Shown here: piece after piece, positions 3,749-5,177 of the stretch
Layout of the letters: the number at the start of each line of letters is the position of its first letter
Numbering within the stretch: position 1 is the first letter of the stretch
From: Candidatus Latescibacterota bacterium
GTDB taxonomy: Bacteria > JAAXHH01 > JABIQT01
Direction: 5' to 3'
Length of the DNA: 5,177 nt
NCBI GenBank assembly: GCA_018667995.1
Contig: JABIQT010000599.1
Span: 1 to 5,177, forward strand
Notes under the pieces: model-generated
Seen by the model: only the letters and a program-made list of their open reading frames with translations
Database searches by the model: none
Told to the model about the DNA's origin: nothing
Program-made: the position numbers and the translations under genes

Positions 3749-4294
3749 TTAGCGGCCGGCATCAAAATGGCTGTTGCGGGTGTATTCGGGGCGGTCGTTC
3801 TTTCGGCCTGGACGGTGTTTATTGCGGTCAACCCGTTCCTCTACCGAGCACCATTACGGAAACTGGGACTGATGTACGATCACCGAGTCACACAGTTGGC
3901 CAATATCGGCGAGGAACGCAAGGGAATCGAAAGTCTGGCAGAATACATCCAAGTCGTACCTACCCGAATATTCGAGACCTATGCGACGCTGTCATTCGTC
4001 GGGTCCCTGTATCTGAATCTGGTTTTGTGTGTGGTAGGTGGTTACTATCTGTTCTCCAAAGCCATAGCGTTCCTCCGCCACCAATCAACAGATCCCACCC
4101 AGGTCGTACTCTTGTCGGTGGCCATGACGACGGCCATCCCCAGCCTCTTCACGCCAGCAGATTGGGACCGATACTACATTCTCCCCGTCTTGTTTTCCAC
4201 CGTGGCGATCGCGGTCGGACTGGGGTACGTCATGGAGTGGATTTACTGCACCGTAAGTCGACGCTATTCCTTCGGGGTTAGGGCCAACTCCTAG
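3749..4294 (+). pseudogene. 5'-truncated second copy of the glycosyltransferase C-terminal region
   Basis: The frame is blocked by TAG at 3746-3748 and then runs LAAGIK-MAVAGVF... to TAG at 4292-4294. From the ATG at 3767 it encodes 175 residues. Over 168 shared residues only 18 differ from the copy at 1-657 (about 89% identical), with no indel or internal stop. NPFLY and DWDRYYILPVL are kept. It ends seven residues later than copy one because the sequence around the old stop differs by about one base. The N-terminal catalytic half is missing, and the ATG at 3767 has no clear ribosome binding site, so it is very unlikely to be an active glycosyltransferase. Because most changes are silent, the copy was probably a functional paralogue until a recent deletion removed its front. 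A small expressed membrane protein cannot be excluded. Confidence 0.75.
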
Positions 4295-4400
4295 CACCAA
4301 CCTCTTGTACTTTCCCCAGGACTGAGCGGCTAAGTTTGATCCAGTTCCCCCACGATTGTACCTCGCTGAGACTGTAAGGCACTGAGCGAGCGGGCTAGGA
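3750..4400 (+). repeat. Long direct repeat, right copy
   Basis: This is the partner of 134-781. The left boundary is sharp: homology starts at TAGCGGCC, directly after the in-frame stop that cuts off the glycosyltransferase frame. The right boundary is gradual, fading near 4400. In the noncoding tail the well-matched blocks are GTACTTTCCC, GCTAAGT-TGATCCAGTTCC and TAAGGCAC. Together with the left copy it brackets the permease gene, a configuration prone to deletion by recombination. Confidence 0.85.
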
Positions 4401-4446
4401 TTGAGCCACCAGTGTTCTGGTTGGGGCCAGACCATCACCGGTTCAT

Positions 4447-4476
4447 ATGGTTCCATTGTTGATGGTTCCATTATTG
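4447..4476. repeat. 15-bp tandem duplication
   Basis: ATGGTTCCATTGTTG (4447-4461) is followed directly by ATGGTTCCATTATTG (4462-4476); one base in fifteen differs. This looks like a slippage duplication or a two-site binding element; nothing in the sequence chooses between them. Confidence 0.8.
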
Positions 4477-4502: not shown

Positions 4503-4606
4503 GGACCCGCTTATCTCATTTTCAGCGCTCCAAAGTGAGATACAAAACTTCTTATCTCACTTTAAGGTCAAAAAAATGAGATAAGGGGTCCTATGTCTCA
4601 CTTTTA
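4503..4606. repeat. 41-bp periodic array of alternating TATCTCA / TGAGATA boxes in a large palindrome
   Basis: Five boxes alternate in orientation: TTATCTCATTTT (4511-4522, plus), AAAGTGAGATA (4532-4542, minus), TTATCTCACTTT (4552-4563, plus), AAAATGAGATAAG (4573-4585, minus) and a degenerate ATGTCTCACTTT (4593-4604, plus). The TCTCA/TGAGA cores start at 4514, 4536, 4555, 4577 and 4596, so the steps are 22, 19, 22, 19 and same-strand boxes are exactly 41 apart. In addition, GGACCC at 4503-4508 pairs with GGGTCC at 4586-4591, extending the box 1 / box 4 pairing to 19 pairs with one bulged base (4509). Box 2 also pairs with box 3 inside it. Bases 4591-4606 overlap the last codons and the stop of fic. 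Confidence 0.85.
4551..4585 (-). terminator. Possible terminator hairpin downstream of fic
   Basis: On the fic strand the first hairpin after the stop codon is CTTATCTCATTTT (4585-4573), a nine-base loop, then AAAGTGAGATAAG (4563-4551): 12 of 13 positions pair. It starts about six bases past the stop. The bases after it read AAGTTTTG, only a weak T-run, and the stem is AT-rich, so intrinsic termination is plausible but not strong. The same bases form part of the 41-bp array. Confidence 0.35.
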
Positions 4607-5177
4607 TCAAGAAAAACATCAAGATATCTCGAAAATACGAAGAGACGGTTTCGGCGTAGGCTCGTGACTTTGTCCAAAATTCCAAGATTCGTAAGTGCAG
4701 AAAGCAGGCTGTTTGCTGGATTATAGTTTATGCGCAATAGATCCATAGTTTGCTTAACTGTGACGGCAGGTCTGGCATACAGATGACGAATCAACCTCTG
4801 GGCCATTTCAGCACGTCTTCCCAGCGATAGAACCTGATTCTCAATATCGTTCCGTAACGCAAATATGCGTTGGAAGGTGAGCTTGCCATCAGCGGCAGTT
4901 TCAATGACGGCTTCCAGGAAGAAGCGACACCAATGACCGATGTCATCTGATTCTCTAACTCGTGAGAGCGCATCATAATAAGAGGTCCGATGTTTTTCCA
5001 GGTACGCAGATAGATAAAGAGACGGCTTCCGCAACAGGCCATGATTGAGAAGATATAACGGAATCAACAGTCGTCCAATTCGCCCATTTCCATCAAGGAA
5101 TGGGTGGATGGTCTCGAACTGATAGTGACTGATAGCAATTCGGATTAAATGCGGTACATGGATATCTTCATTATGCC
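4591..5177 (-). CDS. Fic-family AMP-transferase with C-terminal winged helix (5' end outside window)
   Basis: The frame is open at the right edge and stops with TAG at 4593-4591; 194 residues are visible. Fic proteins usually transfer AMP from ATP to hydroxyl groups of target proteins, or to themselves, in the cytoplasm. The complete core motif HPFLDGNGRIGR lies at 5106-5071, with the catalytic histidine and the GNGR phosphate-binding residues, preceded by ISHYQFETI, as in the COG3177 group. After it come the helical LEKHRTSYYDALSRVRE and HWCRFFLEAVIETA segments. The last third (about visible residues 121-186, AEMAQRL to RYLDVF) looks like the winged helix-turn-helix typical of this group. 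Relatives have about 370 residues, so about 175 are outside the window, including any N-terminal inhibitory helix. No antitoxin gene is seen downstream. By eye this gene is richer in AT than the left genes, which could mean transfer. Family assignment is firm; the target is unknown. Confidence 0.92.
   Translation of the reverse strand, partial: HNEDIHVPHLIRIAISHYQFETIHPFLDGNGRIGRLLIPLYLLNHGLLRKPSLYLSAYLEKHRTSYYDALSRVRESDDIGHWCRFFLEAVIETAADGKLTFQRIFALRNDIENQVLSLGRRAEMAQRLIRHLYARPAVTVKQTMDLLRINYNPANSLLSALTNLGILDKVTSLRRNRLFVFSRYLDVFLDKSET

Follow-up and report, generated by a model that had tools for sequence, protein, structure and literature searches.

A phased array of inverted boxes beside a truncated fic gene, probably bound by the Fic protein itself

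CccR of Yersinia pseudotuberculosis is both a Fic AMP-transferase and an autorepressor; it has a C-terminal helix-turn-helix (HTH), depends on dimer formation, and gives a footprint over inverted 10-bp boxes, AGATAATCAT-N26-ATGATAATCT, in its own promoter (PMC9755527). CbFic2 of Coxiella burnetii (8cil) is a class II Fic protein with a winged helix-turn-helix (wHTH), in which DNA binding promotes dimerization and alters activity; for SoFic, DNA binding had not been demonstrated as of 2023 (PMC10628234). Control of Sofic in E. coli has been attributed to the small antitoxin AS1 (PMC12249575). Fic proteins of the SoFic type occur widely, the anti-phage toxin Sofic among them, and both the target of their winged helix and the means of their restraint had been open. 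Here we analyze a 5,177-nt stretch of DNA (the window) from a Candidatus Latescibacterota bacterium (assembly GCA_018667995.1, contig JABIQT010000599.1), which carries the C-terminal part of a SoFic-like fic gene and, at its 3′ end, an array of five short boxes on alternating strands. Judging from sequence comparison, we consider it likely that this array is an operator bound by the neighboring Fic protein itself, because the 40–41-bp arrays of relatives change their letters together with the DNA-reading residues of Fic.

A 41-bp array of alternating boxes at the 3′ end of fic

The array occupies positions 4511–4604 and consists of five 12-bp boxes with the consensus TTATCTCAYTTT, whose strands alternate as the initial annotation of this locus had described (Table 1). 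That annotation also held that boxes on the same strand recur every 41 bases, and this spacing is indeed exact in all three cases. Its alternating steps of 22 and 19 bases reflect one choice of reference base: the centers of the 12-mers are 21, 20, 21 and 20 bp apart and those of the TATCTCA/TGAGATA core 24, 17, 24 and 17 bp apart, with a sum that is always 41. The fic stop codon (CTA on the forward strand, 4591–4593) lies at the edge of the final box, and the array thus begins inside the last fic codons.

The significance of the array lies in the arrangement of the boxes and not in the single boxes. A lone TTATCTCA, with at most one mismatch allowed, is no rarer than chance, whereas the array reaches a lattice score of 13, against a maximum of 5 both in 300 dinucleotide shuffles and elsewhere in the window. 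The genome-wide search for box pairs that the initial annotation had proposed, run with TATCTCA-N14-20-TGAGATA together with TGAGATA-N7-13-TATCTCA, found no other site in the 6.06-Mb assembly, and reversed-pattern controls gave 0. This sole locus is unlike a dispersed REP-like family with its many genomic copies, and the suggestion of a small repeat family also fails on the relatives: a test pattern matched in 4/6 Fic-bearing genomes, and in each of these at a single place. A second, distant fic in the host genome (G000:C191:862-1680, L084) has no 40/41-bp array at its ends. Two exclusions made at the outset held up: the 12-bp boxes alternate in orientation and the 33-nt copies within the array are only 76% alike, unlike the identical direct repeats and unique spacers of a CRISPR array, and the G+C-rich stem and following T run of an intrinsic terminator were not found.

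Table 1. Coordinates of the boxes and of the Fic features in the window
Feature	Position	Strand	Remarks
Box 1, ATGTCTCACTTT	4593–4604	+	overlaps last fic codons; 41 bp from same-strand 4552
Box 2, TTATCTCATTTT	4573–4584	−	41 bp from same-strand 4532
Box 3, TTATCTCACTTT	4552–4563	+	
Box 4, GTATCTCACTTT	4532–4543	−	
Box 5, TTATCTCATTTT	4511–4522	+	
fic, C-terminal 194 codons, SoFic-like, predicted C-terminal winged helix	4591–5175	−	Pfam Fic E 6e-12; SoFic 3eqx/3zcn
Predicted Fic wHTH, residues about 119–192	4600–4821	−	AlphaFold model; resembles SoFic wHTH
Predicted recognition helix, residues 151–163	4687–4725	−	helix H151–163 in AlphaFold model

Array architecture in homologs and covariation with the Fic recognition helix

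We examined the fic flanks of 80 Fic homologs from many phyla, and of 55 more loci that were fetched later as a held-out set. No common box word was found at the fic end across the 80 homologs; many of them carry inverted boxes particular to each locus. The absence of a fixed word first seemed a refutation, until a motif-free scan for self-similarity at each lag revealed that the fic flanks have one sharp maximum, at 40/41 bp, with means of 7.1–7.3 in the 3′ flank and of 9.2 (lag 40) and 5.7 (lag 41) in the 5′ flank over a background of about 4. The same scan gave no such peak inside fic or 400–580 bp downstream. The comparison beside orthologs that the initial annotation had proposed is therefore split in its outcome: the alternating 40/41-bp architecture is conserved across loci while the box letters vary. 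Among homologs of at least 47% identity, the lag with the highest score is 40/41 for most scoring loci, and more distant homologs also give 30/31 and 51, near whole helical turns. Several of these distant homologs (L123, L124, L127, L131, L132, L135 (viral contigs), L207 and L209) show 5′ lags of 50–52 bp, and in some cases 30/31, which looks like the same array in forms one helical turn longer or shorter.

Arrays were called at a lattice score of at least 6, which in the first set was reached by 0/291 controls (maximum 5), and most loci had an array at the 5′ or 3′ end of fic. The held-out set gave arrays at 34/55 loci versus 1/132 control regions. Once a direct-repeat test was added, for which random regions serving as the control for fic ends gave 19/1932, arrays were present at 83/131 loci: 49 at the 5′ end only, 28 at the 3′ end only, and 6 at both.

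The window Fic is truncated at the contig end, so that the 5′ end of the gene, its promoter and the N-terminal half of the protein lie off the contig. What is present matches SoFic (3eqx/3zcn) with E 3.5e-26 by sequence and E 2.4e-9 by fold, aligning to 3eqx residues 177–361 (phmmer) and reaching a TMq of 0.79 with 3zcn (Foldseek). Its active-site motif HPFLDGNGRIGR is intact, the HPFxDGNGRxxR pattern being represented by IHPFLDGNGRIGR, and H24, P25, D28, G29, N30, G31, R32 and R35 are invariant across 29 homologs. In the AlphaFold model (mean pLDDT 86.9), the wHTH is formed by helices H119–134, H140–147 and H151–163 and strand E178–180, and Y151, N152 and S156 are residues 1, 2 and 6 of the predicted recognition helix. 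Sequence and model together place the protein among the SoFic-like Fics with a C-terminal winged helix.

To relate boxes to protein, box-profile similarity was compared with protein-segment similarity for 72 arrays. In partial Mantel tests, the recognition helix was associated with the boxes when both the Fic domain and the remainder of the wHTH were taken into account (r = 0.186, 0/2000 permutations), and the Fic domain given the recognition helix had no significant association with box similarity. Specifically, when all 319 Fic alignment columns were scanned, the top three were helix residues 2, 1 and 6 (z 11.5, 5.0 and 4.3), of which residues 2 and 1 replicated in the 34 held-out arrays (z 4.0 and 2.8, 0/500 permutations each). 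At a matched Fic identity of 0.55–0.70, mean box similarity rose from −2.3 for pairs sharing none of the three residues to 2.9 for those sharing all of them. Individual pairings of helix and box include STPTAN with TTAGTTAA, HQTAS with TTTACAT, PSTANRL with TTTGCA, and FNTAN with TTGAAATA, and the window boxes are nearest those of other N152-type Fics, which have N at residue 2 (4/6 top, P = 0.0006). The correlation is weak among the most distant Fic pairs (r 0.07 below 45% identity), and below 35% identity sharing helix residue 2 brings no gain in box similarity; the code applies at identities higher than about 35%. We regard this covariation as the core evidence that Fic would read its own array. 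The earlier idea of a binding-site array on one DNA face is accordingly strengthened twice over, by spacings near whole helical turns and by boxes that vary with the recognition helix of the Fic beside them.

Siting of the arrays, proposed mode of action and alternatives

The 5′ arrays have a median span of −92 to −13 from the fic start codon, which would be a repressor position over the fic promoter region. For arrays at the 3′ end, as in the window, the main setting is a fic coupled to the gene before it, and such loci are often of the restriction-modification type: a same-strand gene lies 40 bp or less ahead of the fic start, or overlaps it, at 12/23 loci with 3′ arrays versus 0/45 with 5′ arrays (P = 2e-7). 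Genes upstream of a 3′-array fic include HsdM, MmeI-like and methylase genes, and those downstream of the array are often hsdR, DNA methylases and helicases, with the next gene at many of these loci beginning some tens of bases or less from the last box. Downstream of a 5′-array fic we found HsdM and Eco57I-like or EcoRI-type methylases. Two laboratory strains likewise have fic abutting restriction-modification genes: on plasmid pSYSX of Synechocystis PCC 6803 (L207:4986-7233), fic adjoins a convergent hsdS, and on pVV8 of Thermus thermophilus HB8 (L208:3875-7907), a DUF1156 methylase overlaps fic; both have repeated boxes at the fic 5′ end. Small genes of about 87–107 aa overlap the fic start in two 3′-array loci (L009:992-1255 and L121:2114-2434). 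The former has no Pfam match, and these genes could possibly encode a partner or an antitoxin.

We propose that each 12-bp box would serve as a half-site for the recognition helix of the C-terminal winged helix, and that the subunits of a Fic dimer would each hold one of two adjacent inverted boxes, which are separated by about two helical turns. With a repeat of 40/41 bp, or about four turns, several dimers would then share one face of the DNA and could bind cooperatively. At loci with a separate fic promoter, the array would cover this promoter and the AMP-transferase toxin would repress its own synthesis. Where fic is coupled to a gene upstream, often a DNA methyltransferase or another restriction-modification gene, the array instead lies at the fic 3′ end, at many loci just before hsdR, a DNA methylase or a helicase, and Fic would then control that next gene. 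The computation shows the array, the conservation of its architecture, its siting at either end of fic and the covariation of boxes and helix, from which binding, the dimer arrangement, repression and a target in the window are inferred.

Several points weigh against the proposal that Fic binds and regulates through these arrays. The first 80 loci had already revealed the period when the lattice score was devised, which leaves the held-out set as the fully independent test, and in that set helix residue 6 was weak and only suggestive (z 1.7, 31/500). At the thresholds used, 48/131 homologs have no array. Relatedness was controlled by identity matrices and not by a full tree model. No convincing promoter or terminator was found in the window, and sigma-70 promoter scans near arrays were uninformative at the thresholds used. 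Close downstream same-strand genes are no more frequent at 3′-array loci (18/27) than at 5′-array loci (27/49, P = 0.46); a next-gene role can therefore not be general, and we rejected the idea that every 3′ array is an operator of the next gene. In the window itself, no same-strand gene was found within 1.2 kb after fic. The reading frame 4085–4471 (−), 120 bp past fic, was considered as the controlled gene and set aside as probably spurious, being largely antisense to a conserved duplicate. This direct duplicate (134–730 versus 3750–4348, 87.6% identical) represents the end of a membrane-protein-like gene, with copies on either side of a MacB/FtsX permease and the second copy just past the fic array. 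That second copy may have displaced a gene that once adjoined the array, and the target of the window array may be gone, or the array may work differently.

Among the alternatives, the most interesting would be a tether or sink, given the change of CbFic2 activity on DNA: Fic bound to the array would be inactive or deAMPylating, and when the array is lost, as in phage DNA degradation, active AMP-transferase would be freed. That CbFic2 is switched by DNA binding (PMC10628234) and that Sofic is an anti-phage toxin (PMC12249575) would fit such a role, as would arrays with more boxes than simple repression needs and 3′ arrays, the window's included, that have no close downstream gene. The 5′ arrays nevertheless lie at a repressor position (median −92 to −13), and CccR represses its own promoter (PMC9755527); we consider a tether, with control of activity by the arrays, unlikely. 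In the same speculative vein, and with as little confidence, the SoFic-family array might be a self-encoded, fast-diverging DNA address for several phased dimers that represses transcription, docks the AMP-transferase in an inactive state as an antitoxin and releases the toxin upon disruption during phage infection, with Fic acting as a controller of the restriction gene in restriction-modification operons.

The boxes might also act as RNA, forming hairpins in the fic transcript with a role as terminator, RNA antitoxin or mRNA-stabilizing element. Folding of the array gives −52 kcal/mol (z −9.3), and 3′ arrays are probably transcribed together with fic, but strong folding is expected of any inverted repeats, and boxes able to pair carry 1.35 mismatches per 10, versus 1.36 for same-strand boxes that cannot. 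Potential stem partners show no excess similarity, unlike the stems of a type III toxin–antitoxin-like RNA, which compensating changes would preserve; a terminator-like T tract and an Rfam match were not found either. Many arrays are located ahead of fic, in the region of its promoter, and RNA pairing would predict neither the tracking of the recognition helix nor spacing near whole helical turns, which leaves a role as RNA improbable. We find it slightly more improbable still that some other regulator binds the boxes, or that a mobile fic cassette uses them for recombination. Such origins would suit the frequency of fic in defense loci and the way the arrays abut the fic end exactly, but the best predictor of the boxes among the 319 Fic columns is Fic's own recognition helix, many arrays are upstream, few loci have them on both sides of fic (6/131), and the arrays are unique in the genomes tested. 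Coincidence, or decayed and functionless tandem repeats, would agree with single boxes being no rarer than chance; with a score of 13 where shuffles reach no more than 5, and the same architecture in different letters at many loci, it was already refuted by the lag scan and the held-out set, and we give it hardly any credence.

Comparison with known regulators

If Fic does bind its own arrays, they would offer a concrete target for many homologs at once, together with a three-residue recognition code, and would link an AMP-transferase toxin to the gene order of restriction-modification loci. Alternating 40/41-bp boxes beside fic would also be a simple genomic signature for annotating such regulators.

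The controller (C) proteins of type II restriction-modification systems are small regulators that act at repeated boxes adjoining their own gene. They likewise lie beside restriction genes but belong to an unrelated family, whereas here the regulator would be an AMP-transferase, for which a controller role is only inferred. In LacI/GalR proteins, the recognition helix has its specificity residues 17, 18 and 22 at positions 1, 2 and 6, a correspondence that was not used in our test. The Fic residues that track the boxes occupy the equivalent positions 1, 2 and 6, but in the winged helix of a Fic enzyme rather than in a repressor family. SoFic of Shewanella oneidensis (3eqx, 3zcn) is the closest solved structure to the window Fic, wHTH included, and has no described operator. 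CbFic2 has a wHTH in common with the window protein, but binds random DNA, with no specific site known.

The structure 7xux, which we take to be CccR, matches the window Fic weakly (TMq 0.48). CccR resembles the present system in being a Fic enzyme with a C-terminal HTH and inverted boxes adjoining its own gene, and boxes in the fic promoter, as in CccR, occur in relatives at 49/131 loci. CccR differs in that its boxes form just one inverted pair, set 36 bp apart from center to center by a spacer of 26 bp, at the 5′ end only and with no multi-box lattice; the window has no such single pair, but five boxes with centers 20–21 bp apart and a period of 41. Phased multi-box arrays, 3′ arrays and a box–helix code for Fic were not found described in the literature searched, with preprints and most subscription papers outside its reach. 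Thus auto-repression through one inverted pair is already known from CccR, whereas a lattice of several boxes at 40/41 bp, a location at the 3′ end and the recognition code all appear to be new.
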